In this document: piece after piece, positions 40,949-62,370 of the stretch
Layout: each line of letters starts with the position of its first letter
Numbering within the stretch: the stretch's first letter is position 1
Assembly (NCBI GenBank): GCA_014381745.1
Contig: JACNLA010000017.1
Span: 5,472-69,471, forward strand
From: Actinomycetota bacterium
GTDB taxonomy: Bacteria > Actinomycetota > Acidimicrobiia > Acidimicrobiales > MedAcidi-G1
Length of the DNA stretch: 64,000 bases
Reading direction: 5' to 3'
Notes under the pieces: generated by a model
What the model saw: the letters and a program-made list of their open reading frames with translations, nothing else
What the model was told of the DNA's origin: nothing
Databases searched by the model: none
Program-made: the position numbers and the translations under genes

Positions 40949-40975
40949 GCGGGCGGTTGCCGGGCGAGACTGTCT

Positions 40976-41902: not shown

Positions 41903-41998
41903 CACCAGCGACGCAGGTTCATTCCGACAGCAGCGCAATATGTGGCTACCCTGTGCGCCTACTCATCCGCGGAGACGAACCCGAGGGGGGGGCAACAG

Positions 41999-44427: not shown

Positions 44428-44442
44428 GACCACCGGGTCGGG

Positions 44443-44473
44443 CCACGCAGCCACGCAGCCACGCAGCCACGCA
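44443..44473 (+). repeat. Short tandem repeat CCACGCAG, four units
   Basis: Three perfect copies of the 8-mer CCACGCAG and a fourth with the last base changed, 16 nt after the dctM-like stop and about 110 nt before the dctP-like ATG. No known function; may vary in copy number by slippage. Confidence 0.8.
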
Positions 44474-44581
44474 CGGTTGCACCCAGCCACTATCCGTGAG
44501 AGCATCCCAATCGGTGAGGAGTCGTGCCATCGCCCAGCGGTGATCGGCGATATCCAACAGCATCAAACAAGAGGAGCACCA

Positions 44582-45778: not shown

Positions 45779-45793
45779 GGGGAACCAACGCAT

Positions 45794-45831
45794 AGCGACC
45801 CGGTCACCGATTCGTCGGTGACCGGGTCGCT
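45794..45831. terminator. Perfect 17-bp hairpin with UUCG loop
   Basis: Arms AGCGACCCGGTCACCGA and TCGGTGACCGGGTCGCT surround a TTCG loop, starting 15 nt after the DctP-like stop and 6 nt beyond the stop of the minus-strand gene at 45838. No T-run follows on either strand. Such long UUCG stems often end or protect transcripts, and here it can serve both convergent genes. Confidence 0.8.
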
Positions 45832-45837
45832 GCGCGT

Positions 45838-46281
45838 TCAGGGTCGTGCGATCTGTTCCATCGCCTGCTCGTGGCGACGGGGCACGCTGTAGTGCCTCTC
45901 CCCGACATCCCACTCACCTGTGATGAGGTTGCCACCTGTCCTGATGATCGAGGCATTGTCAGGGAGCCGTTCAACGATCGACGTGGCGACCTGTCGGACC
46001 CGCCCGCCCCGACAGAGCAACAGGCCCCTCGTTGTTCTGGCCAGAACCCGATAATTGGTGGTGGCCGTAGCGGCCACGATCGCAGCGGCCGCACCGATTC
46101 CCATACGGGTGCTCCAGTATTCGACACCGACGACGGTCGCCAAGAACACCACGGCAACCGACACCACCACCGTGTAGGGCATCATCAGACGGTGACGAGT
46201 CCACATGAGGGCAACCGCAACCGGTTGCTCATCGGCCTGAAGAAGGCGCCCCACCGACCGAAGCAGAAAGCTGTGCCGCAT
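45838..46281 (-). CDS. Small membrane protein, PH-like domain, function unknown
   Basis: 147 residues. Two hydrophobic segments form a hairpin (about 36-53, TVVVSVAVVFLATVVGVEYW, and 60-75, MGIGAAAAIVAATATT), followed by a soluble part, YRVLARTTRGLLLCRGGRVR and SIVERLPDNASIIRTGGNLI, that looks like a bacterial pleckstrin-homology (PH-like) fold. No catalytic motif. Its first 9 nt overlap the start of the divergent protease gene. Function unknown. Confidence 0.65.
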   Translation of the reverse strand: MRHSFLLRSVGRLLQADEQPVAVALMWTRHRLMMPYTVVVSVAVVFLATVVGVEYWSTRMGIGAAAAIVAATATTNYRVLARTTRGLLLCRGGRVRQVATSIVERLPDNASIIRTGGNLITGEWDVGERHYSVPRRHEQAMEQIARP

Positions 46282-46974
46282 GGCCGCCAGCGTACGTGGG
46301 CCATCTCGTCAGCGGGCCACGTAGCGGTGCTCACCCTTGTGATGCTGCTGGCCGCCTCATGCGCAGGCTCCCCCACACCAGAGCAGCGATCCGTCACGAT
46401 CTCGACAGCAGGCTGCGGCTACGCCACGGCGGTCAACTCCTCTGGCGTGGTGGTCGACACCGGTCTGGTGCTGACGGCGGCGCACTCGGTTCGGGGATCA
46501 TCAACTATCGCCGTGACCACCACAGACGGTGGGACCTACCCTGCAACCGTGGTCGGGCTGGACATGCGCACGGATCTGGCTCTGCTTTCCGTACCCGAAC
46601 TTTCAGAACCGGCCGTGGAGGTGGGTACTGCCACAGCGGGAGACGTCGGTGAAATCGTGGGGGCATCATCGTCCGGGACGATCCCGTATCTGGTGCGCCA
46701 GGCGGTTCAAATAACAATCGACCGGATCGGCGGCCAAGGCGGCCACGAGCGCTCCGGTCATGAACTCGAGGCGGACACTCGAACGGGTGACAGCGGCGCT
46801 GGCGCATTCGATGACGACGACCGCCTCATCGGCATCGTCTTTGCCACCTCCGATGACGATTCGAACACAACGTGGATTACGGCTGGCAGCGAGGTCTCCG
46901 AGTTCCTGGCCGCCGACAGGAGCGGCCCCTGGGTCTGTGACCCCGAGAAGTCCAGGGTTGAGCCGACAGGCTGA
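46273..46974 (+). CDS. Trypsin-like serine protease lipoprotein
   Basis: About 233 residues from GTG 46273. Signal sequence with lipobox LAASC (Cys30). Catalytic triad: His71 (VLTAAHSV), Asp101 (MRTDLALL) and Ser174 (TGDSGAGA), in the correct order and spacing for a chymotrypsin-fold protease. No PDZ domain follows, so it is smaller than HtrA. It should be anchored outside the membrane. The longer upstream frame is a shadow of the divergent gene. Confidence 0.8.
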   Translation: MPHGRQRTWAISSAGHVAVLTLVMLLAASCAGSPTPEQRSVTISTAGCGYATAVNSSGVVVDTGLVLTAAHSVRGSSTIAVTTTDGGTYPATVVGLDMRTDLALLSVPELSEPAVEVGTATAGDVGEIVGASSSGTIPYLVRQAVQITIDRIGGQGGHERSGHELEADTRTGDSGAGAFDDDDRLIGIVFATSDDDSNTTWITAGSEVSEFLAADRSGPWVCDPEKSRVEPTG

Positions 46975-47797: not shown

Positions 47798-48448
47798 TCA
47801 GCCGAAGAGGTCCGGCTGACTTTCAAGAAACTGTGCCTTGGCGGCCGCCGAAGCTGGTGACGAGGCGATCTCGGTGGCGAGGGCGAGGGTTTCCTCGATC
47901 AGGTCGTCGGCATCGACCACCCTGCTTACCAGACCGACCCTGAGCGCCTCTTCGACCCCCAATACCCGGCCGGTCAGGCAGATCTCGCGCGCCACCGGCT
48001 CCAGTACAACCGTGCGCACCAGGTCGTGTGCGGCTGGAATCCCGGCCTTCACCTGTGGCTGTCCGAAGGTTGCCTCCGTGCCGGCTATGCGCATGTCACA
48101 CATCAGGGCCAGATCCATTCCGCCCGCGACGGCCGGCCCGTGGATCGCCGCGATAATCGGCTTGGGAAAGGTGTGGACAGCATGGTGGTACACACGCGCC
48201 TCGGCAAAGAGCTCTTCGAGCGATTCGGCGGCACGAATCTCGTCCAGGTCGAAACCGGCACAGAAGGTGGAACCGTTACCGGCCAACACGACCACCCGAC
48301 ACGAATCATCGGTAGCGAGCCGGCCGAGCGTGTCTGCCAGAAGTCCACGCAACTCGGCATTGAGCGCGTTGCGACGATCGGGCCGGTCAAGGGTGAGCAG
48401 CAGAACGCCGTCGCCCTGAGCCTCGATCCGCAGCGGTCCTTCGGTCAT
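47798..48448 (-). CDS. Enoyl-CoA hydratase/isomerase family protein
   Basis: 216 residues, short for the family (usually about 260) because the C-terminal helices are reduced. Crotonase segments: LTLDRPDRRNALNAELRGLL, LAGNGSTFCAGFDLDEIRAA and AIHGPAVAGGMDLALMCDMR. It follows the TetR gene by 16 nt on the same strand and is probably in the same transcript, hence part of the regulated acyl pathway. Confidence 0.87.
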   Translation of the reverse strand: MTEGPLRIEAQGDGVLLLTLDRPDRRNALNAELRGLLADTLGRLATDDSCRVVVLAGNGSTFCAGFDLDEIRAAESLEELFAEARVYHHAVHTFPKPIIAAIHGPAVAGGMDLALMCDMRIAGTEATFGQPQVKAGIPAAHDLVRTVVLEPVAREICLTGRVLGVEEALRVGLVSRVVDADDLIEETLALATEIASSPASAAAKAQFLESQPDLFG

Positions 48449-48464
48449 CAGGGTCCTCCAGGTT

Positions 48465-49067
48465 TCAGTGCCGTGGTATCAGGCCGAGGCCAACGATGCT
48501 GTTGAACGCCTCGAGCAGGGTCTCGAGTTCTGCCGGATCCTCGCTCACCAGGCCGGTCCGTACCAGCGCCCAGCCCGACTCCTGGAGCACGGAGGCCGCC
48601 GCGTCCACGTCGATGTCATCCCTGACAGACCCCTCGGCCTTACCGCGGGTGAGGACCCCGCGTAGCAGGGACCGGATCCGGTCACGCTGAAGGTCAGAGG
48701 CCAGCTGCGCCACCTCGCCTGCAACCAGGTCCGTATCGCCGAACAGAGATGAGCGGAGCAGTTCGTCATGGCTGTAGTGGTCGATGGTCGCCTCTACAAG
48801 TGCCCGGAGCAGATCGGGTGAGGCACCCTCTGTCGACAGCGCAGTCTCGGCAGCAGCCAGGAACCGCTCAAGTGATCGCTCCACGACCGCCAGATAGATG
48901 TCCTGTTTGGACTTGAAGTGGAGGTAGACGCTGCCCTTGGCGGTGCCGGCCTCGATGGCAACGTCCTCGACGGTCGTGCGCTTGTAACCGAACCGCCTGA
49001 ACCTGGCCTCGGCAACGTCCAGGAGCCGTTCGGCTGGATCAAGGGTGGCTGTCTCCACGGCTGTCAT
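48465..49067 (-). CDS. TetR family transcriptional repressor
   Basis: About 200 residues. N-terminal HTH: LLDVAEARFRRFGYKRTTVE, DVAIEAGTAKGSVYLHFKSK, a canonical TetR DNA-binding domain; the C-terminal two-thirds is the ligand pocket. It diverges from the acyl-CoA dehydrogenase operon at 49158, and a perfect palindrome lies between them. ATG 49067 is 7 nt after TAATGT (minus strand), so it is probably leaderless. Expected to sense an acyl-CoA or acid of the pathway, as related repressors do. Confidence 0.92.
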   Translation of the reverse strand: MTAVETATLDPAERLLDVAEARFRRFGYKRTTVEDVAIEAGTAKGSVYLHFKSKQDIYLAVVERSLERFLAAAETALSTEGASPDLLRALVEATIDHYSHDELLRSSLFGDTDLVAGEVAQLASDLQRDRIRSLLRGVLTRGKAEGSVRDDIDVDAAASVLQESGWALVRTGLVSEDPAELETLLEAFNSIVGLGLIPRH

Positions 49068-49074
49068 GGACCCG

Positions 49075-49124
49075 ACATTACACAAGTTGACACCTAATGA
49101 CCAGAATACTATTCTGGTCATTAG
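49075..49124. promoter_or_regulatory. Divergent promoter with TetR-type operator
   Basis: Perfect inverted repeat 49094-49124: arms CTAATGACCAGAAT and ATTCTGGTCATTAG (14 bp), spacer ACT. On the plus strand TTGACA (49087-49092), a 17-nt spacer and TATTCT (49110-49115) form a near-ideal promoter for the operon at 49158, with the -10 inside the palindrome. On the minus strand TAATGT (49080 to 49075) serves the tetR gene. One bound repressor dimer pair would silence both. Confidence 0.85.
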
Positions 49125-49157
49125 TCAGTTAAGCCTGTTTCCGAACCGGGAGCACCC

Positions 49158-50330
49158 GTGTCCCAGAGCACTGCCACCTACCCCCGCCAACCCTCCTCCT
49201 TCCTCTCCGAGGATCACGAGACCTTCCGCCAGACGGTCGCCTCGTTCGTTGAACGCGAGATCCGCCCCAACGTGGACGCCTGGGAACGTGACGGCCAGTG
49301 CGACAGGGAGCTCTACCGGAAAGCCGGCGCCGCCGGCCTGTTGGGACTTCGCTATGACGAGGCCTACGGAGGCGCCAACCTTGACTTCATGGCCACATGC
49401 GTGCTGGCCGAAGAGCTCGCCAAGGGCGACTCAATCGGCACCGCCGTTGCGCTCATGGCCCAGTCCGAGTTCGCCCTGGCGATCCTGGCCGACGAGGCAA
49501 CCGATGCCCAGAAGGAAGCCTTTATGGCCCCAGCCATCGCCGGAGAACTGATCGGAGCCATCGGCGTGTCAGAACCGGGCGCCGGTTCCGACGTGGCCGC
49601 CATCACAACCCGAGCGCGCCGCGACGGTGGCGACTACGTCATCTCGGGCCAGAAGACGTTCATCTCCAACGGCACGAGAGCCGACTTCATCACCCTTGCG
49701 GTCCGCACCGGCGAGGCCGGCCCCAAGGGCATATCGCTGGTCATCTTCCCCACCGACACCCCCGGCTTCGAGGTAGGTCGACGCCTCGACAAGCTGGGCG
49801 CCAGGGCATCAGACACCGGCGAGCTGTTCTTTGACGAGTGCCGCATACCGGCCACCAACCTCGTGGGCGAAGAGGGCCACGGGCTGCGCTACATCCTCTC
49901 CCACTTCGGCGGTGAGCGACTCGTGATCGCCGCCTTTGCAGTCGGGATCATGGAGCGCCTCATCGAGTTGGGCCTCGACTACGCCAACGAACGAGAGGCC
50001 TTCGGCGGCCCGATCATGGGCTTCCAGACGTGGCGCCACCGCTTCGCCGAGATGGCCACCCGGCTCGAGGCCACCAGATTGCTGGCCCACCAGGCAGCCC
50101 GCCTCCTCAGCGACAAGGACCCGGCCGGCGACATCGCCGTCTCGATGGCCAAGCTGCACGCCGCAGACGCAGTGCAGTCGGTTGCAGCCGAGATCCTGCA
50201 ACTCCACGGAGGCTTTGGCCAGATGGAGGAGTCACCAATACCCCGCTACTACCGCGACGTAGCCGGATTCTCCATTGGAGCCGGCACCTCCGAGATCATG
50301 CGCGAGCTGATAGCGCGCGCCCTCGTCTAA
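49158..50330 (+). CDS. Acyl-CoA dehydrogenase, IVD/LCAD-type active site
   Basis: 390 residues, GTG start with GGGAG 5 nt upstream. Standard motifs IGVSEPGAGSDVAAITTRAR and YRDVAGFSIGAGTSEIM. At the C-terminal site where many family members have the catalytic Glu (EGTSE) it has GAGTSE; instead a Glu sits in SHFGGERLVIAAFAVG, the position used by isovaleryl-CoA and long-chain dehydrogenases. That suggests a branched or bulky substrate. First gene of the TetR-controlled operon. Confidence 0.9.
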   Translation: MSQSTATYPRQPSSFLSEDHETFRQTVASFVEREIRPNVDAWERDGQCDRELYRKAGAAGLLGLRYDEAYGGANLDFMATCVLAEELAKGDSIGTAVALMAQSEFALAILADEATDAQKEAFMAPAIAGELIGAIGVSEPGAGSDVAAITTRARRDGGDYVISGQKTFISNGTRADFITLAVRTGEAGPKGISLVIFPTDTPGFEVGRRLDKLGARASDTGELFFDECRIPATNLVGEEGHGLRYILSHFGGERLVIAAFAVGIMERLIELGLDYANEREAFGGPIMGFQTWRHRFAEMATRLEATRLLAHQAARLLSDKDPAGDIAVSMAKLHAADAVQSVAAEILQLHGGFGQMEESPIPRYYRDVAGFSIGAGTSEIMRELIARALV

Positions 50331-50351
50331 CCCCCTGAAAGGACCTGACAG

Positions 50352-51221
50352 ATGACCGAAACCGAACAGAGCCCACGAGTTGGCGCAATAGACGCCTGGA
50401 TGACCATTCCCCCTCCTGGTTCAGCCGACCGGTGGCCCTCATCGTTTTGGCACATCTTCCGCAAGTACGGGGTTGAGGACCGCTTCCAGAGAGGCTTCAC
50501 CGTCGACGAGGTCCTGGCCGAGATGGACGACGCCGGAGTCGACATCGGCGTTGCCTCCTCGTTCAAGTTCCTCGACTCGTGGGTCGTGAGCAACGACGAG
50601 AACGCCGCCTACGTGCGCGAGGCACCCGATCGCTTCATCGGGGCATTCACCGTCGACATCAGGGACCCAATGCCCGGCATGCGCGAGTTCCGACGCTGCG
50701 TGGAGGAGCTGGACTACAAGGCCTTCCGCCTCGAGCCCTTCCAGTGTGGTGACGGTAGGACCACCGCCCCACCACCCACCGACCGCATCTACTGGCCCTT
50801 CTACGTGGCCTGCTGTGAGTACGACATCCCGCTGTGCATCCAGGTCGGACACACCGGACCACTGCTGCCCTCCGAATGCGGCAGGCCCATCTACCTCGAC
50901 GAGGTGGCCCTCACCTTCCCCGAGTTGAAGATCCTCGGCACCCACGTGGGCGACCCCTGGCAGGACGAGATGCTGATCCTGGCCTGGAAGCACCCAAACG
51001 TGTACGTCGAAGCGTCGGCACGGCCGGCCAGGCACTGGACCGAGAGCGTCAAGAAGTTCTCCGGCGGCTACGGCCAGGACAAGATGATCTGGGCCACCGA
51101 CTACCCGCTGCTGCCATTCAAGCGCACCGTCGACGACGTCTACGACTGCGGCTTCTCCCCGGAGGCGACACGCAAGATCCTGCGGGACAACGCTGCGAAG
51201 GTCTTCAAGATCGATGCCTGA
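50352..51221 (+). CDS. Amidohydrolase 2 family protein
   Basis: 289 residues, TIM-barrel hydrolase/decarboxylase family (relatives of ACMSD and ring-opening hydrolases). Segments: GAIDAWMTIPPP at the N-terminus, VGHTGPLLPSE, LGTHVGDPWQDEMLILAWKH, VYVEASARPARHW and MIWATDYPLLPF. The usual N-terminal metal-binding HxH is replaced by DAW (residues 14-16), while the later His and Asp ligands are kept. It starts 21 nt after the first dehydrogenase, with AAAGGA before it. May hydrolyse a ring or remove a carboxyl group in the pathway; not provable from sequence. Confidence 0.85.
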   Translation: MTETEQSPRVGAIDAWMTIPPPGSADRWPSSFWHIFRKYGVEDRFQRGFTVDEVLAEMDDAGVDIGVASSFKFLDSWVVSNDENAAYVREAPDRFIGAFTVDIRDPMPGMREFRRCVEELDYKAFRLEPFQCGDGRTTAPPPTDRIYWPFYVACCEYDIPLCIQVGHTGPLLPSECGRPIYLDEVALTFPELKILGTHVGDPWQDEMLILAWKHPNVYVEASARPARHWTESVKKFSGGYGQDKMIWATDYPLLPFKRTVDDVYDCGFSPEATRKILRDNAAKVFKIDA

Positions 51222-52005
51222 CCTGCTCTCCCATGAGCGAGACGACCGGGGTGTCCACACCATCAGGTTCCGCCGCCCCGAGGTTCGCAACGCGCTCAAC
51301 CCGCAGGCCTTCACCGACCTGATCGAGGCCTGTGCCGCCGTTTCGGCCGACCCCGACGCCAGGGTCATGGTTCTCACAGGTGAGGGTGTTGCCTTCTCGG
51401 CAGGTGGAGACTTCGAGGCCCTCCAGGACCTGCTGGACGGTGACCGTGCAAACGCCGTGGCAGAACTGCGCCACGCCAACGAGGGCATCAAGGCAATAGC
51501 AGGACTAGCCGTGCCCACGGTCGCCGCAGTCAACGGTGACGCCTTCGGAGGCGGTGCGGCAGTCGCCCTGTCAACCGACTTCCGGATCATGAGTGACGAA
51601 GCCCGTCTGGGGTTCGTGTTCTCTCGCCTCGGGCTATCGGGAGCCGACACCGGCGCCACCTGGTGGCTGAACCGCCTGGTCGGTCCCGTCCGGGCAATGG
51701 AGATTGTCACCCTCGGTGCCGTCTACTCGGCCGACGAGGCGCTGGAGGCAGGGCTGGTCACCGAGGTGGCACCGGCCGCAACCTTCGACAAGGCCGTGGC
51801 CGACCTCGCCGACCGACTGGCCTCCCTCGCACCGCTGGCCACGCGCGGAAACAAGGTGGCACTCAACGGGATCGAGCAACGCTCGCTGGCAGAGCACCTG
51901 GATCTGGAGGCCGAGATTCAGGCCGATGCCATCTGCTCAGAGGACTTCAGCGAGGGCCTCGAGGCCACAAGATCCAAACGAACACCGTCGTTCAGGGGGA
52001 ACTGA
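51214..52005 (+). CDS. Enoyl-CoA hydratase/isomerase family protein
   Basis: 263 residues. Crotonase segments TIRFRRPEVRNALNPQAFTD, LTGEGVAFSAGGDFEALQD and VNGDAFGGGAAVALSTDFRI, then FVFSRLGLSGADTGATWWLN, a form close to PaaG-like isomerases that carry Asp instead of the two hydratase Glu. So isomerisation is as likely as hydration. Its start overlaps the amidohydrolase stop by 8 nt and its stop overlaps the next start by one base (TGATG). Confidence 0.88.
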   Translation: MPDLLSHERDDRGVHTIRFRRPEVRNALNPQAFTDLIEACAAVSADPDARVMVLTGEGVAFSAGGDFEALQDLLDGDRANAVAELRHANEGIKAIAGLAVPTVAAVNGDAFGGGAAVALSTDFRIMSDEARLGFVFSRLGLSGADTGATWWLNRLVGPVRAMEIVTLGAVYSADEALEAGLVTEVAPAATFDKAVADLADRLASLAPLATRGNKVALNGIEQRSLAEHLDLEAEIQADAICSEDFSEGLEATRSKRTPSFRGN

Positions 52006-53177
52006 TGGACGTCTACCTGTCACCAGAACAGCTGGCCATGCGAGCCGAGGTGCGTGCCTTCCTCGATGAGGAGTACCCGCTGGAGCGAATCACCCAGATG
52101 GAACGCGACGAGGAGTACCCCGATGAGTTCTACCGGTCGTGTGCCGAGCGCGGCTGGACCGGTATTCCCGTACCCGCCGAGCACGGTGGATCAGATGGCT
52201 CGGTCGTGGACCTCTGCGTCCTGGTTGAGGAGGTCGGAAAGACCTCGATCTCGCTGGCAACCCTCTACATAACCGGGACCATCTTCGGGTCACATGCTCT
52301 GCACATCTGTGGCTCCTCAGAACAGGCCCAGAAGTACCTTCCCGCGATCGTGACCGGCGACAAGCGCTTCGCCCTGTCCATGTCTGAACCCGGAGCGGGC
52401 TCTGACTTTGCCGGGATGGAGACGACAGCTGAAAAGGTCGACGGTGGCTGGCGGCTAAACGGCGTCAAGGGACCGATCTCAGGTGCCGAGCGTGCCGAGA
52501 CCATCATCACCGCTGCCCGAACCAACACCTTTCCGGACCAGCCCCGCCAGAAGGGAATAACCCTCTTCCTTGTCGAGAACCAGGTCGACAACCCGACGCC
52601 GGGCCTCTCCTTCACCCGTCGCCAGCACCTGGCAATGAAGGCCCTGATGGTCAACGACGTCACCTACGACAACGTGTTCGTGCCTGACGACGCCGTGCTC
52701 GGCGAGGTGGACGGCGGCTGGCTGAACCTATCCAAGCTGATGGACCCTGAACGCCTCGCAAACGCGGCCCAGTCGATCGGTGTCGCCCAGGCGGCTCTCG
52801 ACGACGCCGTGGAGTACGCCAACAACCGTGAACAGTACGGGGGGCCGATCGCCCGGTTCCAGGCGGTCACCCACCCACTTGCCGAGTCGCAGGCCGAGGT
52901 GGCGGCCGCCCGCCTGCTCGTCTACGCAGCCGCCCACAAGCGTGACGTGGAGGGCCCCTGCCCGATGGAGGCCTCCATGGCCAAGATGCTCGCCAACAAC
53001 GTGTCCGGCAGGGCAACTACCGCAGCCATGCAGGTGGCCGGGGCACGCGGCTGGGAAGCCGAGTCGCACTTCCTGCGACGCAACCTCGAGGTCCGCGGCT
53101 GCGAACTGGGGGGCGGAACGAGCCAGATCCAGCGCAACATCATCGCCCACCACATGGGCCTTCGGACCCGGGGCTGA
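52005..53177 (+). CDS. Acyl-CoA dehydrogenase, IVD/LCAD-type active site
   Basis: 390 residues. ALSMSEPGAGSDFAGMETTA is the FAD loop. The C-terminal site reads GCELGGGTSQIQRNI with Gly in place of the common catalytic Glu, while LSKLMDPERLANAAQSIGVA has a Glu at the isovaleryl/long-chain position (compare LDLERL in isovaleryl-CoA dehydrogenase). NREQYGGPIARFQAVTHPLA is typical. Second dehydrogenase of the operon; 2 nt before the alcohol dehydrogenase start. Confidence 0.9.
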   Translation: MDVYLSPEQLAMRAEVRAFLDEEYPLERITQMERDEEYPDEFYRSCAERGWTGIPVPAEHGGSDGSVVDLCVLVEEVGKTSISLATLYITGTIFGSHALHICGSSEQAQKYLPAIVTGDKRFALSMSEPGAGSDFAGMETTAEKVDGGWRLNGVKGPISGAERAETIITAARTNTFPDQPRQKGITLFLVENQVDNPTPGLSFTRRQHLAMKALMVNDVTYDNVFVPDDAVLGEVDGGWLNLSKLMDPERLANAAQSIGVAQAALDDAVEYANNREQYGGPIARFQAVTHPLAESQAEVAAARLLVYAAAHKRDVEGPCPMEASMAKMLANNVSGRATTAAMQVAGARGWEAESHFLRRNLEVRGCELGGGTSQIQRNIIAHHMGLRTRG

Positions 53178-53179
53178 CC

Positions 53180-54205
53180 ATGAAGGCACTGGTTCTGGGG
53201 GAACCCGGCGAGATCTCCCTCATCGAGGTTCCAGAGCCCGTTCCCGCTGACGGTGAGGTACTGATCGCCGTGGATGCTGCCGGTGTCTGTGGCACCGACC
53301 GCCACATCGTCGCCGGCGACCTTGGCGTTCCGCCCGGAACCGTTCCCGGACACGAGATCGCGGGCACGATCCTTGAAACCACACATGGCGTCGAGGGCTG
53401 GAACCCCGGCGACCGGGTGGCCGCCTTCGGACAGGTCACCTGTGGAACCTGTGCCGCGTGCACCTCAGGCAGATCCAACCGCTGCCGCCGACCCCAGATC
53501 CTCGGCATGGCAAGACAGGGCGGTTTTGCCGAACGGATCGCCCTGCCGACCACAAGCCTCGTAGCGCTCCCCGACGAGGTGCCAGACGGGATCGGCGCCA
53601 TTGCCTCGGACGCCATAGCCACCCCGTTCCACGCGCTGACCACAGTCGGGAGGCTGCAACCGGGCGAGACCGTTGTTGTCATCGGCGCAGGTGGCCTCGG
53701 TGTGCACGCCGTTCAGCTGGCCCGCCTCTGTGGTGCCGCCAGAGTGGTTGCCGTCGACCCTTCAGAGGCCGCACGCGATGCCGCCACGGCCGCTGGTGCC
53801 GACGAGACCTTCGACCCAGGGTCGACGGACGAGCCGGCGAGGGACCTCCGCAGGCTGGCCCGTGGCGCCACGCTTGTCCTGGAGTGCGTGGGAAGCTCGG
53901 AGACGGTTGAGCTCGGCCTCGCGTCCCTTGCCCCGGGCGGCCGCCTGGTGGTCGTCGGCGTCGGGCACACACAGCCGCGGTTGCCTCCGCTCGGCATGTT
54001 CATCGGTGCCGAGCTGAGCGTCCACGGCTCGTTCGGATCCACGCCCTCTGAGATTGCGACGGTTCTGAGGCTCATTTCCAGTGGCCGCCTGGATGTGTCC
54101 AGATCTGTCAGCCGCGAGGTGGCGCTGGCCGATGCGGCCGCGATCTTCTCAGAACCATTCGGACCAGCCAGGACGGTAGTCGTCCCCGAGGAGCACACAG
54201 CATGA
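53180..54205 (+). CDS. Zinc-dependent alcohol dehydrogenase (MDR family)
   Basis: 341 residues. Catalytic zinc ligands: Cys in AAGVCGTDRHIV and the HE pair in VPGHEIAGTIL; structural zinc Cys cluster GTCAACTSGRSNRC; cofactor loop VVVIGAGGLGVHAVQLARLC. A VDPSEAARDAATAAG segment with Asp after the beta strand favours NAD over NADP. It likely oxidises a hydroxy intermediate made by one of the crotonase enzymes or by the epoxide hydrolase-like enzyme of the same operon. Confidence 0.9.
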   Translation: MKALVLGEPGEISLIEVPEPVPADGEVLIAVDAAGVCGTDRHIVAGDLGVPPGTVPGHEIAGTILETTHGVEGWNPGDRVAAFGQVTCGTCAACTSGRSNRCRRPQILGMARQGGFAERIALPTTSLVALPDEVPDGIGAIASDAIATPFHALTTVGRLQPGETVVVIGAGGLGVHAVQLARLCGAARVVAVDPSEAARDAATAAGADETFDPGSTDEPARDLRRLARGATLVLECVGSSETVELGLASLAPGGRLVVVGVGHTQPRLPPLGMFIGAELSVHGSFGSTPSEIATVLRLISSGRLDVSRSVSREVALADAAAIFSEPFGPARTVVVPEEHTA

Positions 54206-54981
54206 GCGACCAGGTACTTGTAGAAATCGCCGACAGGGTCGGCACCGTGACCCTGAACCGGCCCGAGCGCCTGAACACGCTCGACCACGACACGCTGGAC
54301 CTTCTGATCGATGCGCTGGCCCGGGTGGCCGGATCCGACGACGTGAGGGTCGTCGTGCTGGCCGGGACCGGCAGGGTCTTTTGTGCCGGCGCCGACCAGG
54401 CCGAGATGGTCGAGCGAAAGCCACAGGAGTGGGAGCCGATCGTGCGCCGTTACCTGGACCCGGTTCGCGCCATCGTCAGCATGGACAAGCCGGTGATAGC
54501 CGCCCTCCACGGAGACACCGTCGGTGGCGGCCTTGGCCTGGCGTTGGCATCCGACTTCCGGATTGCCGCCGAGGGGATCCGCCTGGGAGCACCCTTCACT
54601 CCCATCGGTCTGGCCGGCTGTGACATGTCAGCTGGCTGGTTCCTGCCTCGACTGGTTGGCCTGGGGGCGGCGACCGAAATGATGTTCACCGGCCGGCTGG
54701 TGAAGGCCGACGAGGCACTCGACATGGGGCTCGTACACCGGGTCGTGGCAGCCGATGAGTTCACCGACCACGTGGCCGAGTTTGCAGCCAGGTTGGCTGC
54801 AGGCCCGCCGATCGCCCACGCATGGACGAAACGCGCAATCCACCGCTCCCTTGGTGTCGACATGGACGCTGAGTTCGAGTTCGAGATCTTCGCCCAGGTG
54901 CAGTGCATCCAGACCGAGGACCACCACGAAGGTGTCAAGGCCTTTCAGGAGAAGCGGCGACCGGAGTTCCGCGGTGTCTGA
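54202..54981 (+). CDS. Enoyl-CoA hydratase/isomerase family protein
   Basis: 259 residues. Crotonase segments VGTVTLNRPERLNTLDHDTL, LAGTGRVFCAGADQAEMVER, ALHGDTVGGGLGLALASDFR, and FTPIGLAGCDMSAGWFLPRL. The classical hydratase Glu pair is not evident. It overlaps the alcohol dehydrogenase stop by 4 nt and the next dehydrogenase start by 8 nt, in one transcript. Confidence 0.89.
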   Translation: MSDQVLVEIADRVGTVTLNRPERLNTLDHDTLDLLIDALARVAGSDDVRVVVLAGTGRVFCAGADQAEMVERKPQEWEPIVRRYLDPVRAIVSMDKPVIAALHGDTVGGGLGLALASDFRIAAEGIRLGAPFTPIGLAGCDMSAGWFLPRLVGLGAATEMMFTGRLVKADEALDMGLVHRVVAADEFTDHVAEFAARLAAGPPIAHAWTKRAIHRSLGVDMDAEFEFEIFAQVQCIQTEDHHEGVKAFQEKRRPEFRGV

Positions 54982-56131
54982 GCTCGCAGCCGTCAGGGAG
55001 TCCTTCCGGGCCGAGGTGGCCAGGTTCACGGCTGCCGAGATCACCCCCAACGCCACCACATGGGACCAGGCCGACCCTGAGGGCTCCTACCCGATGCACC
55101 TGTTTGCGCAGTTGGGCGAGTTGGGCTGGCTGGGCGTCGGGTTCGACGAGTCGTTGGGAGGCTCCGGTGGCGGACCGGTCGACCGGTGCATCCTCTTTGA
55201 GGAACTGGCATACGGCTCGGCCGGGGCCGCTCTCGGCCTCTACGTCCACACGGCCCTGGCCGCCGGTGCTCTCGCCGAGATCGCCGACAGGGAGCTTGCT
55301 GAACGCTTCGTGCCCGGCCTGCTGGCGGGAACCACGACGGGCGCCTGGGCCTACGCCGAGCCGGACTCCGGAGCCGACGTAACCCAGGTGCGGCTCGCAG
55401 CGCGCAGAGACGGCGACAACTTTGTCCTGAACGGCTCGAAGATGTACATCACCAACGCCACCTTCGCCGATGTGATCCTCGTCGTGGCACGCACCTCGGG
55501 CGAACCGGGAAAGCTCGCCGGCCTCTCGGTCCTGGCCGTCGACGGCAACTCCGCAGGCCTCACCCGGAGCTCGATGCACAAGCTGGGCATGCGCCCGTCA
55601 GAGCTCGCGGAGCTCCACTTCGAAGACTGCGTGGTTCCCGCCGATCGCCTGGTCGGAGAGCTCGACAAGGGGTTCCGACAGTGCCTTGCGGTGCTCTCCC
55701 AGGGTCGGGTGTTTGCCGGCGCCCTGGCGCTGGGGCTGGGTCGGGCAGCACTAGATGCGGCCGTCACCCATGTGGACACCCGGGAGCAATTCGGCGGCCC
55801 GCTGGCCGCCAAGCAGGTCGTGCGTGCCACGATTGCCGACATGACAACCCGCCTGCGGACCGTGCGTCACCTCGTCTACTCGGCGGCCGAGAAGTTGGAG
55901 GCCGGAGACGACTACGACACCGATGCGTCAATCGCCAAGCTGGTCGCCTCCGAGACCGCCACCTGGGTCAGCGAGCGCTGCCTGCACCTGCACGGCGCCC
56001 AGGGGTTCATGCTGGAGAGCCCCGCCCAGCGCTTCTACCGGGACTGCAAGATCAACGAGTGGGGCGAAGGCGCCAACGAACTCCAACGGGAGATGATCTT
56101 CGAGGCTGTCTCACGGGGGTACAGGCCATGA
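54974..56131 (+). CDS. Acyl-CoA dehydrogenase, classical active site
   Basis: 385 residues from GTG 54974. WAYAEPDSGADVTQVRLA is the FAD loop; RFYRDCKINEWGEGANELQR keeps the Glu of the short/medium-chain position (GEGANE), unlike the other two dehydrogenases in the operon, and LSQGRVFAGALALG has no Glu at the alternative site. So it probably acts on a different, perhaps straight-chain, intermediate. Start overlaps the crotonase stop by 8 nt, stop overlaps the next start by 4. Confidence 0.9.
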   Translation: MSELAAVRESFRAEVARFTAAEITPNATTWDQADPEGSYPMHLFAQLGELGWLGVGFDESLGGSGGGPVDRCILFEELAYGSAGAALGLYVHTALAAGALAEIADRELAERFVPGLLAGTTTGAWAYAEPDSGADVTQVRLAARRDGDNFVLNGSKMYITNATFADVILVVARTSGEPGKLAGLSVLAVDGNSAGLTRSSMHKLGMRPSELAELHFEDCVVPADRLVGELDKGFRQCLAVLSQGRVFAGALALGLGRAALDAAVTHVDTREQFGGPLAAKQVVRATIADMTTRLRTVRHLVYSAAEKLEAGDDYDTDASIAKLVASETATWVSERCLHLHGAQGFMLESPAQRFYRDCKINEWGEGANELQREMIFEAVSRGYRP

Positions 56132-56508
56132 CCCCGACAGAGACCGTGAACGCGTTCATCGCCGCCATCGAGCGCAAGGACGTTGAGGCTGCAGTTGCCC
56201 TTGTGAGCGATGACGTGTCCTACGAGAACATGCCGATGCAGCCGATAGTCGGGCCTGCGGCCATGGCAGCGACCCTTGAGATATTCCTGGCACCGGCATC
56301 CGAGGTGGAATGGCCCGTCCTGCGCCAGTTCGAGGTGGGCAACGTGGTTGTCAACGAACGCCTGGACCGCTTCAAGATCGGCGATGGCTGGCTGGAGTTG
56401 CCGATCGCAGGCGTGTTCGAGGTGGTCGACGGCAAGATCAGCCTCTGGCGCGACTACTTCGACATGGCCACCTACTCCAGCCAGATGGCCGAACTGACGG
56501 GAGCCTGA
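56128..56508 (+). CDS. Limonene-1,2-epoxide hydrolase-like protein (SnoaL fold)
   Basis: 126 residues, the size of limonene epoxide hydrolase. Active-site residues of that enzyme have counterparts: Tyr32 and Asn34 (SYENMPM), Arg78 and Asp80 (NERLDRF), and an Asp in SLWRDYFDMA; the 46-residue spacing from Tyr to Arg is the same. So it is a plausible true epoxide hydrolase rather than only a SnoaL-fold relative. Overlaps both neighbours (4 nt and 1 nt). In the operon it would turn an epoxide into a diol. Confidence 0.82.
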   Translation: MTPTETVNAFIAAIERKDVEAAVALVSDDVSYENMPMQPIVGPAAMAATLEIFLAPASEVEWPVLRQFEVGNVVVNERLDRFKIGDGWLELPIAGVFEVVDGKISLWRDYFDMATYSSQMAELTGA

Positions 56509-56912
56509 TGGACTCTCCAGGCACCCCCGTCTCCCACGACTCCTCTCCCCTGGCCGAGTTCCTCAAGGTCGGCCAGGACGGCAACGGCACGTGCAGGATC
56601 TCGATCGACCCGGTCCACCTGAGCCCCAACGGCACCATGCACGGCGGTGCCCTGTTCACCATGTTCGACACCGCCATGGGCACCGCTGCGGCCGGCTATC
56701 TGGCAGAGGGCCAGATGTGCGTGACCATGGAGATCCAGATCCGTTACCTGAAGCCGATCTTCGAGGGCGATGTCGAGGTTCGCGGCAGCGTGCTGCACCC
56801 CGGGAAGCGGATCATCCAGACCGAGGCACGCGCCACCAACGGCGACAGGACCGTGGCCTCAGCCACCGGATCGTTCGTGGTTCTCGACAGGGAGAGGCCA
56901 ACACCAGCCTAG
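56508..56912 (+). CDS. PaaI-like hotdog-fold thioesterase
   Basis: 134 residues. Hotdog signature HLSPNGTMHGGALFTMFDTA (about residues 37-56), with the HGG and the following acidic residue in TMFDTA, plus YLKPIFEGDVEVRGSVLHPG. Hydrolyses acyl-CoA to free acid and CoA, perhaps releasing a dead-end or final product. Start overlaps the previous stop by one base. End of the tightly packed part of the operon. Confidence 0.87.
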   Translation: MDSPGTPVSHDSSPLAEFLKVGQDGNGTCRISIDPVHLSPNGTMHGGALFTMFDTAMGTAAAGYLAEGQMCVTMEIQIRYLKPIFEGDVEVRGSVLHPGKRIIQTEARATNGDRTVASATGSFVVLDRERPTPA

Positions 56913-56985
56913 GTTCCACAGCTTGACCGACCACTAACGTGGGCGGTGCCCACAAGAGACGGGTGATCGCCTAGAGGAGAGTCCC

Positions 56986-57501
56986 GTGAGCAAAGACTGT
57001 TCCGACACAAGCCAGGCAACCGGGTTCCACCATGTCGCCTACGCCTGCCGTGACATCCACGAGAACCACCGCTTCTACGAGGACCTGATCGGGCTGGAAC
57101 TTGTCAAGACCGAGGTCACCCCCTATGGCGACGGCTTCTTCCGCCACACCTTCTACGACACCGGCGATGGCTCCTGTCTTGCGTTCTTTGACCTTCACGG
57201 TGTGGGCGAGGAGGACAAGGACCGGACCGACATCTCGACCGGCCTCGGCATGCCTCTCTGGGTGAACCACATCGCCCTCAGGCGCAACGAGGACCAGACT
57301 GCGGTGATCACCGAGCGACTACAGGAGGCTGGTCACGGCACCTACACCCTTGAGCACGGCTGGTGTCGCTCGACCTACGTGACCGACCCCAACGGGATCT
57401 CCCTTGAGTTCTGCGTGGACACCCCCGGCTTTGAACCTGACCGCCAGCGGGCCCTCGAGTTGCTCGATGCCATCCCGGAGAGCACGGTCAAGGTCATCTA
57501 A
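56986..57501 (+). CDS. VOC superfamily protein (glyoxalase/dioxygenase fold)
   Basis: 171 residues. Two betaalphabetabetabeta modules: FHHVAYACRDIHENHRFYED (first metal His) and MPLWVNHIALRRNEDQTAVI (second His), then STYVTDPNGISLEFCVDTPG with the metal Glu. Metal ligands of a VOC enzyme are thus present. GTG start with GAGGAGAG at about 8 nt. Separated by 73 nt from the thioesterase gene, probably still in the same transcript. Reaction unknown: isomerase, lyase or dioxygenase. Confidence 0.84.
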   Translation: MSKDCSDTSQATGFHHVAYACRDIHENHRFYEDLIGLELVKTEVTPYGDGFFRHTFYDTGDGSCLAFFDLHGVGEEDKDRTDISTGLGMPLWVNHIALRRNEDQTAVITERLQEAGHGTYTLEHGWCRSTYVTDPNGISLEFCVDTPGFEPDRQRALELLDAIPESTVKVI

Positions 57502-57516
57502 GACAGACCTGGAAAC

Positions 57517-58635
57517 ATGCCCACCGTAGAGCGCCGCTTCGTCTCCCTGGACTCCCCAACGGGTGGCCAGAACGGTGCGGGCTTCATGCCCACCCAGGGC
57601 CTCTACCACCACGTCTCGGGAACCTCACCCAAGACTGCGTTCATCGCCTCGCACTACAACGTGGACTTCTCCGAGCACTACCTGGCAACCCGCCTGGCTG
57701 CACTCGGCTACGGCTTCCTTGGCTGGAACACGCGCTTCCGGGGTGTTGAACAGTTCTTCACCCTCGACAACGCCCTCGTCGACATCGGCGTGGGCGTCAG
57801 GTGGCTGCGCGAGGAAGCCGGAGTCGAGACCGTTGTCCTCATGGCCAACTGCGGCGGCGGTTCGCTCATGGGTGCCTACCAGGCGCAGGCTGCTGCGGGG
57901 GTACTGAAACCCCTGCTGGAACGTCCGGTTCCCGAGGCCGCCCTTGAGCTGTCACCGGCCGACCTGTATGTGTCGCTGAACGCCCACCCGGGCCGACCCG
58001 AGGTTCTCACCAACTGGTTCGACCCGTCGCTCACAGACGAGAACGACCCGAGTTCGGTTGACCCGAGCCTGGACATGTACGACCCGGCCAACGGCCCTCC
58101 CTACCCAGCGGAGTTCGTGGAGAGGTACCGCTCTGCCCAGGTCGCAAGGAACAACCGCATCACTGACTGGGCGCTTGCCGAACTGGAGCGACTGCAGGGG
58201 CTCGACATCTACGACCGGCTGTTCTCAATGTCACGCACCTGGGCGGACCTGCGCTTCCTCGACGGCAGCATCGACCCTTCAGAGCGCCTGGTCGGCACCT
58301 GCTACGCGGGTGACCCCAGGTTCGCCAACTACAGCCCCTTTGGCATCGGCTCCTCGAACACGATCCGGACATGGCTGTCAATGTGGAGCCTCGAGTACTC
58401 CCAGTGCCGCGGGGCCCCGAACCTGGCACATGTGACCGTTCCCTCGCTGGTGATCCAGAGCCTGGCTGACACGGGCGTGTTCACATCAGATGCCCAGATG
58501 ATCTTTGATGGGTTGGCCGCCGCCGACAAGCAGTTGGAGTGGGTAACAGGCGACCACTACCTCCAGGACCCCACCGATGCCAGAGACCACGTGGCAGGAC
58601 TGGTCCACAACTGGGTAACCGCCCACCTGGGCTGA
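57517..58635 (+). CDS. Alpha/beta hydrolase with Cys at the nucleophile position
   Basis: 372 residues. Strand-turn-helix VVLMANCGGGSLMGAYQAQA puts Cys112 where Ser usually sits (GxSxG); dienelactone hydrolases also use Cys. Preceded by FIASHYNVDFSEHYLATRLA and YGFLGWNTRFRG; the likely Asp is in SLADTGVFTSDAQM and the His in VTGDHYLQD. A long insert at about 140-290 may be the lid. It ends the operon 15 nt after the VOC gene. Substrate unknown, possibly a lactone or ester of the pathway. Confidence 0.8.
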   Translation: MPTVERRFVSLDSPTGGQNGAGFMPTQGLYHHVSGTSPKTAFIASHYNVDFSEHYLATRLAALGYGFLGWNTRFRGVEQFFTLDNALVDIGVGVRWLREEAGVETVVLMANCGGGSLMGAYQAQAAAGVLKPLLERPVPEAALELSPADLYVSLNAHPGRPEVLTNWFDPSLTDENDPSSVDPSLDMYDPANGPPYPAEFVERYRSAQVARNNRITDWALAELERLQGLDIYDRLFSMSRTWADLRFLDGSIDPSERLVGTCYAGDPRFANYSPFGIGSSNTIRTWLSMWSLEYSQCRGAPNLAHVTVPSLVIQSLADTGVFTSDAQMIFDGLAAADKQLEWVTGDHYLQDPTDARDHVAGLVHNWVTAHLG

Positions 58636-59486: not shown

Positions 59487-61253
59487 TCAGACGAAGTCGG
59501 CGTACTTGTCCAGGTGGCGGACAGGCGTTGACAGGGCGTCCTTGCGGAACGGGTCGCCCAGTTCCTTGGTGCACATGATCTCGATGACCGTGGTCTTGCC
59601 GTCGTTCATCTGGGCGTCGATTGCAGCAGCCAGGGCAGGGCCGACCTCTTCAAGCTGGTCGACGCGAATGGCCTCGGCTCCCATGGCGGTTGCGATGTCG
59701 GCGTAGCTCTCGCCGCCCTCCAGCTCACCGGCGACGAACCGTTGGCCGTAGAAGTCGACCTGGTTCTTCTTCTCGGCACCCCACTGGCGGTTGTGGAACA
59801 CGACGGCGGTCACGGGAATGTCGTGGCGGACTGCGGTCATTACCTCGACCATGCTCATGGCCCAGGCTCCGTCACCTGCATAGGAGATTGCCGGCCTGTC
59901 GGGTGCTGCCGCCTTGGCTCCGATGATGGTCGGTAGGGCGTAGCCACAGTTTCCCCAGCTCATGGCTGCAAAGAAGGATCTCGGCTCCTCGAAGCGCAGG
60001 TAGCTGTTGGAGACCGAGTTGATGTTGCCAATGTCTGTGGCGACCATGACCCGCTCAGGCATTACTTTTTCCAGCTCGCGGAGAACCTGACGGGGGTGAA
60101 GCCAGTTGCCCTCCTCGTCGATTGACTCCTTGATCATGTCGATGCTGAAGTCGTCGATCTCGTGGGTCCACTCGTCGAGTTCGGCCTCCCATGTGGCCTT
60201 CTCCTCAGCCATTGCGCCGGCTCTCTCGTCGGTGGTGGCGTCACAGTTGAGTGTGCGGTCGGTCAGCCGGGCAGTGAGCGCCCTTGCTGCGGCTCCGGCA
60301 TCACCGCAGATGCCCACGGAAATCTTCTTGACCAGACCGAGCATCTTGGCGTCGGCGTCTACCTGGATGATCTTGGCGTCGGCGGGCCAGTAGTCCATGT
60401 CGTGTTGGGGCAGTGTTCCGAAGGGACCCAGCCGCGTACCGAGGGCCAGCACCACGTCGGCGCGGGCGATCAGCTTCATGGCGGCCTTGGAGCCCTGATA
60501 GCCGAGCGGACCGCACCACTGCGGGTGGCTGGCGGGGAACGAGTCGTTGTGGAGGTACGAGTTGACGACCGGGCAGCCCAACCGCTCTGCCAGCTCGGCG
60601 GCCTCAGCAACGGCGTCGCCCATGACCACGCCGCCACCTGAGATCATGACCGGGAACTCGGCGGCGGCCAGCAGGTCGGCTGCCTCGTCGAGGCTCTGCT
60701 CGCCGCCGGGGCCGCGCTCGATGCGGATCGGCTCAGCGATTTCTACGTCGATGTCACCGTAGAAGCGATCGCGGGGAATGTTCAGCTGGGTTGGGCCCAT
60801 CTCCAGGATGGCCCGGTCAAAGCATCGGGCCGTGATCTCGGCCATGCGGTTCTCGTTGTTGACGTGGCCCTGGTACTTGGTGAACTCCTCGAACATGGGG
60901 AGTTGGTTGGCCTCCTGGAAGCCGCCGAGGCCGATGCCCATGGTTCCGGTCTCGGGGGTGACGATCACGACGGGGCTGTGTGCCCAGAAGGCTGCCGCGA
61001 TGGCGGTGACGCAGTTGGAGATGCCGGGGCCGTTCTGGCCGATCACGACCCCGTGGCGGCCGCTGACCCTGGCGTAGCCGTCGGCCATGTGGGCGGCGCC
61101 CTGTTCGTGGACCACGGGTACCAGCCGGATCCCGCCTGGGGCAAAGATGTCCATGGCGTCCATGAACGCCGAGCCCATGATGCCGAAGGCGGTATCGACA
61201 CCGTTGGCGACCAGTGTCTCAACGAAGGCTTCGCTGGGGGTCATGCGGGTCAT
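59487..61253 (-). CDS. xsc: Sulfoacetaldehyde acetyltransferase
   Basis: 588 residues, ThDP-dependent. Converts sulfoacetaldehyde and phosphate to acetyl phosphate and sulfite, the key step in taurine, isethionate and other C2-sulfonate use. Very characteristic segments: FGIMGSAFMDAMDIFAPGGI, QNGPGISNCVTAIAAAFWAH, GLGGFQEANQLPMFEEFTKY and NRQWGAEKKNQVDFYGQRFV; ThDP/Mg motif YAGDGAWAMSM. AGGAG lies 7 nt before the ATG. No phosphotransacetylase or sulfite dehydrogenase gene is next to it. Confidence 0.97.
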   Translation of the reverse strand: MTRMTPSEAFVETLVANGVDTAFGIMGSAFMDAMDIFAPGGIRLVPVVHEQGAAHMADGYARVSGRHGVVIGQNGPGISNCVTAIAAAFWAHSPVVIVTPETGTMGIGLGGFQEANQLPMFEEFTKYQGHVNNENRMAEITARCFDRAILEMGPTQLNIPRDRFYGDIDVEIAEPIRIERGPGGEQSLDEAADLLAAAEFPVMISGGGVVMGDAVAEAAELAERLGCPVVNSYLHNDSFPASHPQWCGPLGYQGSKAAMKLIARADVVLALGTRLGPFGTLPQHDMDYWPADAKIIQVDADAKMLGLVKKISVGICGDAGAAARALTARLTDRTLNCDATTDERAGAMAEEKATWEAELDEWTHEIDDFSIDMIKESIDEEGNWLHPRQVLRELEKVMPERVMVATDIGNINSVSNSYLRFEEPRSFFAAMSWGNCGYALPTIIGAKAAAPDRPAISYAGDGAWAMSMVEVMTAVRHDIPVTAVVFHNRQWGAEKKNQVDFYGQRFVAGELEGGESYADIATAMGAEAIRVDQLEEVGPALAAAIDAQMNDGKTTVIEIMCTKELGDPFRKDALSTPVRHLDKYADFV

Positions 61254-61383: not shown

Positions 61384-62370
61384 TCAGCCGGCTGGCCGTC
61401 GCCGGGCCCAGGCGTCGATGCTCACCGCTACCAGGATCACAGCACCCTGGATCACCCGCTGCCAGATCGGATCAACCTGGTGCAGGTTGAAACCGTTGAT
61501 CATGAACGCAATGAAGAACGCTCCAAACACCGTGCGCCAGACCCCTCCCTCACCGCCGGCAATTGAGGTGCCACCAACGACCACAGCCGATATGACTCCA
61601 AACAGGAAGCTGAAGTCGTCGGACGGCATCGCGCTCAGCGACCGTGACGCAGAGACGACACCGGCAAGGCCAGCGGCCGCTCCGGTAAGAGCGAACACGG
61701 CGATAGTCACTCCGGTTACCCGGACACCAGCCAGACGTGCAGCCTCGGGATTCCCGCCAGTGGCGTAGACGTGCCGTCCGAAACGGGTCCGCGACAAAAG
61801 GAACCAGGTTGCAAGCACCACTCCCAATGCGATCCAGGTTGCAGTTGTCAGAGAAAACCACCTGGTGCGCGCAATCTTTCTGAAGGTCTCCGTCTCGGGC
61901 TGCAGGATGCGGCGGTCACTGATCAGGTATCCGGCGCCAAACACCATGAAGGAAGTTGCCAACGTCCCGATGAAGGAGTTGACCTTCAGCACAGCAACCA
62001 CGACTCCGTTCAAGCACCCGACAAACAGCCCGGCAAGAACGCCGACGACGACCGCCAACAGGACTGACTGAGTGGCGTTCTCCACCTGAAGGGCCAGCAG
62101 TGGTGCCGCAACGAACACGGCAGAGATCGAAAGGTCAAAGCCGCCGGCAATCATCGCCACCGTGGCAAGCGATGCGGCAATCAGCAAGGTCGCCTGCTGG
62201 TCCAGGATGTTTCGCAGATTCGCCTCGCTGAAGAACGGTCCGGTCGTGACCGTTAGCAGGAGAAAGAGAGCAAGGGTGATCCAGATGATCCCATAGCCCT
62301 TCAGGTGCGGCCGGAGATGTGCGATTAGGCCGCCCGACTCGACCTTTTCGTCTAGATGGACCTCAGACAC
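61384..62370 (-). CDS. Rbs-type ABC transporter permease
   Basis: About 328 residues, eight to ten predicted spans, family of RbsC/XylH. Segments: LLIAASLATVAMIAGGFDLS (the GGxDLS motif of this family), GALVGCLNG-like VGCLNGVVVAVLKVNSFIGT, GGNPEAARLAGVRV and SIAGGEGGVWRTVFGAFFIA. GTG 62370 overlaps the ATPase stop by 8 nt; the longer frame would overlap it by 86. Works with the ATPase and the binding protein at the window edge; 130 nt before xsc. Confidence 0.88.
   Translation of the reverse strand: MSEVHLDEKVESGGLIAHLRPHLKGYGIIWITLALFLLLTVTTGPFFSEANLRNILDQQATLLIAASLATVAMIAGGFDLSISAVFVAAPLLALQVENATQSVLLAVVVGVLAGLFVGCLNGVVVAVLKVNSFIGTLATSFMVFGAGYLISDRRILQPETETFRKIARTRWFSLTTATWIALGVVLATWFLLSRTRFGRHVYATGGNPEAARLAGVRVTGVTIAVFALTGAAAGLAGVVSASRSLSAMPSDDFSFLFGVISAVVVGGTSIAGGEGGVWRTVFGAFFIAFMINGFNLHQVDPIWQRVIQGAVILVAVSIDAWARRRPAG

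Follow-up and report, generated by a model that had tools for sequence, protein, structure and literature searches.

What is the function of a run of genes that sets three acyl-coenzyme A (acyl-CoA) dehydrogenases, several crotonases, a zinc alcohol dehydrogenase and an amidohydrolase-fold protein beside a TetR-family regulator? Such a locus occupies positions 47798 to 58635 of the window, a 64,000-nucleotide stretch of DNA from an Acidimicrobiia genome of 2.19 Mb in 44 contigs (GenBank GCA_014381745.1, contig JACNLA010000017.1). The first-pass annotation of the window had read it as a single catabolic operon for a CoA ester with no match to a known pathway, and the analysis supported this view. 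Our preferred reading, to which we assign a probability of roughly 0.45, is that the locus holds a catabolic cassette, complete in itself and spread by horizontal transfer, that serves a single CoA-bound acid, which would be repressed by TetR and in which the amidohydrolase-fold protein (B) would cleave a C-C bond in place of a thiolase.

Conservation and control of the gene unit

Seven genes on the forward strand form the core of the locus: A (acyl-CoA dehydrogenase 1, ACAD1; 49158-50330; PF00441/02770/02771), B (50352-51221; PF04909, 124.7 bits against a cut-off of 26.4), C (crotonase 1 with an isomerase-type active site, ECH1; 51214-52005; PF00378, 176 bits), D (acyl-CoA dehydrogenase 2, ACAD2, optional in the cassette and assigned by Pfam; 52005-53177), E (the zinc alcohol dehydrogenase, MDR; 53180-54205; PF08240/PF00107), F (crotonase 2, also with an isomerase-type active site, ECH2; 54202-54981; PF00378, 198.7 bits) and G (a short-chain/butyryl-CoA type acyl-CoA dehydrogenase aligned to 5ol2, ACAD3; 54974-56131). 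They are followed by H, a limonene-epoxide-hydrolase-family protein (LEH; 56128-56508; PF07858, 105 bits against a cut-off of 24), and I, a 4HBT hotdog thioesterase with a TIGR00369 domain (56508-56912). From 49158 to 56912 the spacing ranges from an 8-nt overlap to a 21-nt gap, which suggests that these genes are co-transcribed. On the reverse strand, the gene for the TetR-family repressor (48465-49067; PF00440, 53.5 bits; 51-92% identity across loci) diverges from ACAD1, and a third crotonase-fold gene, ECH0 (47798-48448; PF00378, 155.7 bits), follows 16 nt behind tetR in the same direction. The TetR start is likely 49067 and not 49121, as judged from the homologous region and from the putative operator upstream of it. 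Rechecking confirmed the gene positions and the range of overlaps and gaps up to 56912 that had been reported before, and the enzyme families were borne out by Pfam and NCBIfam, or for gene K by a structural model. The term "twelve-gene operon" held in part: TetR and the eleven genes are present, while ECH0 behind tetR had been overlooked and the terminal genes J and K are a separate module.

One scan of a genome collection with B returned 25 orthologous stretches (79-98% identity) from metagenome-assembled genomes (MAGs) labelled Acidimicrobiia, Myxococcota, 'Deltaproteobacteria' and 'Acidobacteria', two of the stretches (L022 and L036) being parts of a single genome. One further genome, G387 (locus L073), was added by whole-genome search, giving 26 loci. 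The first-pass annotation had proposed looking for the same gene order elsewhere; the TetR-to-ACAD3 arrangement is shared by these 26 loci in Acidimicrobiia and Myxococcota, with TetR divergent from ACAD1-B-(ECH1-ACAD2)-MDR-ECH2-ACAD3 in all intact copies. ECH1 and ACAD2 are both missing from L028, L031, L033 and L073, and ECH1 alone from L029 and L032. The L032 copy also carries several frame breaks in TetR, ACAD1, MDR and ACAD3, due to assembly errors or decay. Judged by this comparison, the conserved unit is TetR with ACAD1, the amidohydrolase-fold protein, ECH1, ACAD2, MDR, ECH2 and ACAD3. The pairing of ECH0 with tetR was found again in L012-L015, L022, L023, L030 and L034, including two Myxococcota/'Deltaproteobacteria' MAGs (L023 and L034), and in several lineages ECH0 is part of the unit.

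The flanks of the unit differ between genomes and are unrelated, and therefore it behaves as a cassette. Purifying selection acts on every gene: against the same-genus locus L014, dN/dS ranged from 0.04 for B to 0.27 for thioesterase I, the fastest evolving. Since the TetR-to-ACAD3 order also recurs in 26 loci, the association of the genes is not due to chance. No thiolase, CoA ligase or transporter was found among the genes of the cassette, and in most loci no conserved thiolase, ligase or CoA-transferase lies in it or beside it.

The tetR-ACAD1 gap contains a putative TetR operator, GACCAGAATACTATTCTGGTC (49099-49119), a 21-bp palindrome with perfect 9-bp arms. It overlaps a forward-strand promoter-like sequence, TTGACA-N17-TATTCT (49087-49115), whose -10 element falls within the palindrome. 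This is the sole sigma-70-like site in 11.6 kb, where 1.1 would be expected by chance, so the evidence for a promoter is its position. An operator consensus was built from about half of the loci and then searched in the others; the palindrome (a match at 13 or more of 17 positions, at most 260 nt from ACAD1) was present in 24 of 25 loci, and no control block of a locus equalled that locus's operator score. The exception, L027, has a weak site in place and, some 1.7 kb away from ACAD1 and next to an unrelated gene, a strong copy (7139-7159). The window's own genome has no further site within two mismatches of the operator, and in other genomes there is at most one. In L031 there are two sites, one before a CoA ligase and another before ACAD1; with the ligase behind an operator, a free acid would be the likely substrate. 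TetR control, as proposed earlier, is thus supported by an operator that is conserved between species and overlaps the -10 element, and the divergent TetR with its predicted binding site at the promoter marks a TetR-regulated operon. A steroid KstR-type regulon was rejected, the TetR protein scoring 19 bits with the KstR model (cut-off 280).

Compared with three Myxococcota genomes, the cassette proteins are 64-84% identical (B, 82-84%), and RecA is 59-65% identical. ACAD3 is a paralogue that has replaced the original copy, with 48-51% identity where measured. In a tree of B the Myxococcota copies form one group (SH-aLRT 93) that lies among Acidimicrobiia. Because the cassette is more similar between the phyla than RecA, these data point to horizontal movement between Acidimicrobiia and Myxococcota, with moderate branch support and the caution that the binning of MAGs demands. 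The 'Acidobacteria' MAG of L030 was not counted as representing another phylum: with a RecA 85-87% identical to that of the window's genome, it is probably an Acidimicrobiia bin under the wrong label.

Protein B and a proposed thiolase-free route

B is the most conserved protein of the unit, with 124 of 289 positions invariant in 24 rows of the alignment. It has the TIM-barrel Amidohydro_2 fold (PF04909; AlphaFold pLDDT 86; Z 27.1 with 3irs). The usual metal ligands of the superfamily are largely gone. In strand 1, IDAWM(T/S) replaces ID-x-HxH in 22 of the 23 rows that extend over the motif, the other row having IDGWMT, and the strand-5 His is Gln164 in 24/24 rows. When the HxH motif, the strand-5 His and the strand-8 Asp were checked, three metal ligands proved to be lost and only His198 (strand 6) and Asp250 were left of the usual set. 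Ring or lactone hydrolysis, as proposed earlier, is therefore doubtful as the work of a metal amidohydrolase, since neither HxH nor the strand-5 His is kept. The best sequence and fold match of B is 3irs (BB4693), a protein of unknown function that is only 23% identical; the next structural matches are non-oxidative decarboxylases and LigJ. Distant homologues of B (31-36% identity) occur on plasmids among ACAD, ECH, MDR, CoA-ligase or CoA-transferase genes. A sister subfamily (L074-L085) from many actinobacteria, which begins with ID(V/A)WxQHPT, also lacks HxH and is often solitary.

Amidohydrolase-superfamily proteins are known to stand in for thiolases. CouO of Rhodococcus replaces the thiolase step in cinnamate breakdown (PMC4737184), and HpeF and CouO are likewise placed on beta-ketoacyl-CoA in a second paper (PMC9618137). 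ThnN has been put forward as a candidate for opening the beta-dicarbonyl ring in anaerobic naphthalene breakdown (PMC12016498). The context of B is of the CouO type, an amidohydrolase-superfamily protein linked to CoA-ester beta-oxidation genes with no thiolase. Like the cassette, the p-hydroxycinnamate (cou) operon of Rhodococcus jostii RHA1 acts on a CoA-bound acid through beta-oxidation-like steps; it differs in being regulated by MarR, whereas the cassette has three acyl-CoA dehydrogenases, an MDR, isomerase-type crotonases and no ligase. B is likened to CouO by its proposed role and its gene context. The thn operon (ThnN, ThnO, ThnT) likewise places such a protein beside acyl-CoA dehydrogenases and crotonases, and its ThnN is the candidate for a proposed step that would cleave the ring of a beta-dicarbonyl CoA ester. 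In contrast to the cassette, it encodes aryl-CoA reductases, MaoC dehydratases, thiolases and a CoA-transferase. The bad/ali pathway for cyclohexanecarboxylate resembles the cassette in its dehydrogenation, hydration, alcohol oxidation and hydrolytic ring opening on CoA esters. Its ring opener BadI is a crotonase and BadH is an SDR; in the cassette, the candidate opener has the amidohydrolase fold and the oxidoreductase is an MDR.

None of these systems matches the cassette, in keeping with the earlier claim. With the model for cyclohexanecarboxyl-CoA dehydrogenase (TIGR03207, cut-off 575), ACAD1, ACAD2 and ACAD3 scored 211, 160 and 173 bits, and with that for the 6-hydroxycyclohexenecarbonyl-CoA dehydrogenase Had (TIGR03201, cut-off 338.65) the MDR scored 125.6 bits; both cut-offs were missed widely. 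A search of the available literature for the same gene set found no matching described operon. The metal amidohydrolase of a piperine pathway (PMC12753220) was set aside, as it cleaves an amide and has a different role.

We propose a thiolase-free mechanism in which B cuts the C-C bond, because the cassette has no thiolase, CouO provides a precedent and ThnN a further candidate, and distant homologues of B occur among CoA genes. The acyl-CoA, or a product of it, would release TetR from the operator. ACAD1 would then desaturate a branched or alicyclic acyl-CoA, and ECH2 and ECH1 would either hydrate the product or relocate its double bond. The alcohol formed in this way would be oxidized by the MDR to a beta-keto thioester. 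By analogy with CouO, B may hydrolyze the C-C bond of this beta-ketoacyl-CoA as a thiolase substitute, and a cyclic substrate would have its ring opened in that cleavage. ACAD3 (and ACAD2) would pass the shorter product into ordinary beta-oxidation, while LEH and the thioesterase may be later additions for a wider range or for CoA release. A branched or alicyclic acid is a plausible substrate class, and isoprenoid and alicyclic acids are not distinguishable from sequence. The narrower version, that B is a metal-independent hydrolase opening an alicyclic beta-ketoacyl-CoA in an undescribed thiolase-free ring-opening pathway spread among marine Acidimicrobiia and Myxococcota, we consider unlikely as it stands.

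Extended copies, accessory genes and adjacent loci

Some relatives appear to carry further parts of the pathway. The short-form cassette of G387 has genes for branched-chain-type ABC permeases and a CoA ligase upstream, and a convergent island downstream encodes a CoA-transferase III, a TetR, a BKACE protein, two ECH, two ChsH2-like zinc-ribbon proteins and two thiolase-like proteins. This region (L087/L088; G387:C1, about 1783000-1803300) looks like a fuller form of the pathway, and islands of a similar kind lie beside L028, L031 and L033. The BKACE and thiolase-like homologues in the window's own genome are only 33-40% identical and located elsewhere, and therefore the lower pathway differs there; the island was rejected as a part of the window's pathway on the same grounds. 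In the relatives, the ligase of L031 and the ligase, permeases and CoA-transferase of G387 make an acid substrate more likely.

The genes behind ACAD3 vary. LEH is limited to the nearer Acidimicrobiia and is missing from most orthologous operons, thioesterase I was found at this position in the window's own family only, and the J-K pair in its own genus only. In other Acidimicrobiia (L113, L123) the pair also turns up unaccompanied by the operon. LEH and the thioesterase are best described as lineage-specific add-ons and J-K as an independent module. J (56986-57501, forward strand; PF00903, 41.8 bits), a VOC protein, begins after a gap of 73 nt, and a terminator scan between I and J gave no useful site. 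K (57517-58635, forward strand) follows after 15 nt. It has no Pfam match, and its name, alpha/beta-hydrolase-like protein, was taken from the predicted model (AlphaFold pLDDT 68), for which the top Foldseek matches were alpha/beta hydrolases throughout. At its nucleophile elbow K has Cys (ANCGGGS), whereas its relatives share a consensus with Ser (GNSGGGS).

Downstream of K lies a separate locus for organosulfonate use, with sulfoacetaldehyde acetyltransferase (Xsc; 59487-61253, reverse strand; TIGR03457, 1006 bits against a cut-off of 676) followed by ABC transporter genes (61384-62448 and 62363-63889). On the other side, 40205-46974 encodes an AraC-type regulator, a TRAP transporter (DctM, 42847-44427; DctP, 44477-45778) and a trypsin-like protease, the last adjoining an SDR at 47035.

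Competing explanations and significance

The active sites of the remaining enzymes bear on the proposed C-C cleavage and on its rivals. At the Glu144 position, ECH1 and ECH2 have Phe and ECH0 has Gln, while Glu164 is kept (Asp in some ECH2); ECH1 and ECH2 share an extra conserved Asp near that of PaaG-like enzymes. None of the three thus has the Glu144-Glu164 pair of a canonical enoyl-CoA hydratase, and since Glu144 is replaced, they are unlikely to be plain hydratases. An ECH of the sister island (L088:4449-5237) has the equivalents of both residues. The MDR keeps its catalytic- and structural-zinc motifs, and MDR enzymes that act on 3-hydroxyacyl-CoA are unusual. Together with the loss of HxH and the strand-5 His in B, and with sister-subfamily members of B that stand alone without beta-oxidation genes, the crotonase and MDR observations count against the mechanism proposed above.

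A first rival is a stepwise dehydrogenation of the ring. The three ACADs, together with the isomerase-type crotonases and the MDR, would convert an alicyclic carboxyl-CoA to an aromatic or dienoyl-CoA; B would then decarboxylate or hydrate instead of cleaving a C-C bond by hydrolysis, and the thioesterase would free the acid. This explanation draws on the number of ACADs, on the two to three crotonases that lack Glu144 and keep Glu164, an isomerase pattern, and on the non-oxidative decarboxylases and the hydratase LigJ as the nearest characterized folds to B. The metal ligands of those decarboxylases are missing in B, however, and ACAD1 and ACAD2 (211 and 160 bits) fall far under the cyclohexanecarboxyl-CoA dehydrogenase cut-off of 575; we hold this explanation to be improbable.

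We rate equally low a variant of beta-oxidation for a branched-chain or isoprenoid acid, similar to that of leucine or citronellate. Here B would take a branched intermediate of the 3-methyl or 3-keto kind as its substrate, and an epoxide by-product would be hydrated or opened by LEH. The catalytic Glu of ACAD1 lies in GGERLV, at the isovaleryl-CoA-dehydrogenase-type position, with Ala at the usual position; that of ACAD2 lies in helix G (DPERLA), with Gly at the usual position. This arrangement is that of isovaleryl-CoA and long-chain acyl-CoA dehydrogenases and counts in favor of this variant; ACAD3 keeps the usual catalytic Glu, and the dehydrogenase active sites are intact. LEH matches PF07858 and has the intact Tyr/Asn/Arg/Asp/Asp set of its family (YENMP, ERLDRF and WRDYFD kept in 7/7 rows), and branched-chain-type ABC permease genes adjoin the G387 copy. 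Yet the cassette has no carboxylase, lyase or hydroxymethylglutaryl-type gene, and the absence of LEH from most orthologous operons speaks against this variant. With LEH confined to Acidimicrobiia among these loci, epoxide opening, which the first-pass annotation had included in the mix of reactions, does not hold as a core step.

Least likely of all is the shortening of the side chain of a large CoA ester (steroid or aromatic propanoid), as CouMNO does on cinnamates, with the ring handled elsewhere: the CouO precedent (PMC4737184, PMC9618137) and the thiolase-like/ChsH2-like island beside the cassette in four relatives speak for it, but no such island lies beside the window's operon, its own genome offers only the distant (33-40%) homologues elsewhere, and TetR is not KstR-like (19 of 280 bits).

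The cassette is a new variant of CoA-dependent acid catabolism that is real, conserved and dedicated, and it is not a textbook operon. It represents a compact, conserved and transferable unit for carbon use in mostly marine bacteria that have not been cultured and about whose diet little is known, and its unique operator could be used as a genomic marker and for a biosensor. If it is true that B cleaves C-C bonds without the usual metal ligands, this would extend the range of the amidohydrolase superfamily and offer a model for the ring-opening step proposed for ThnN.

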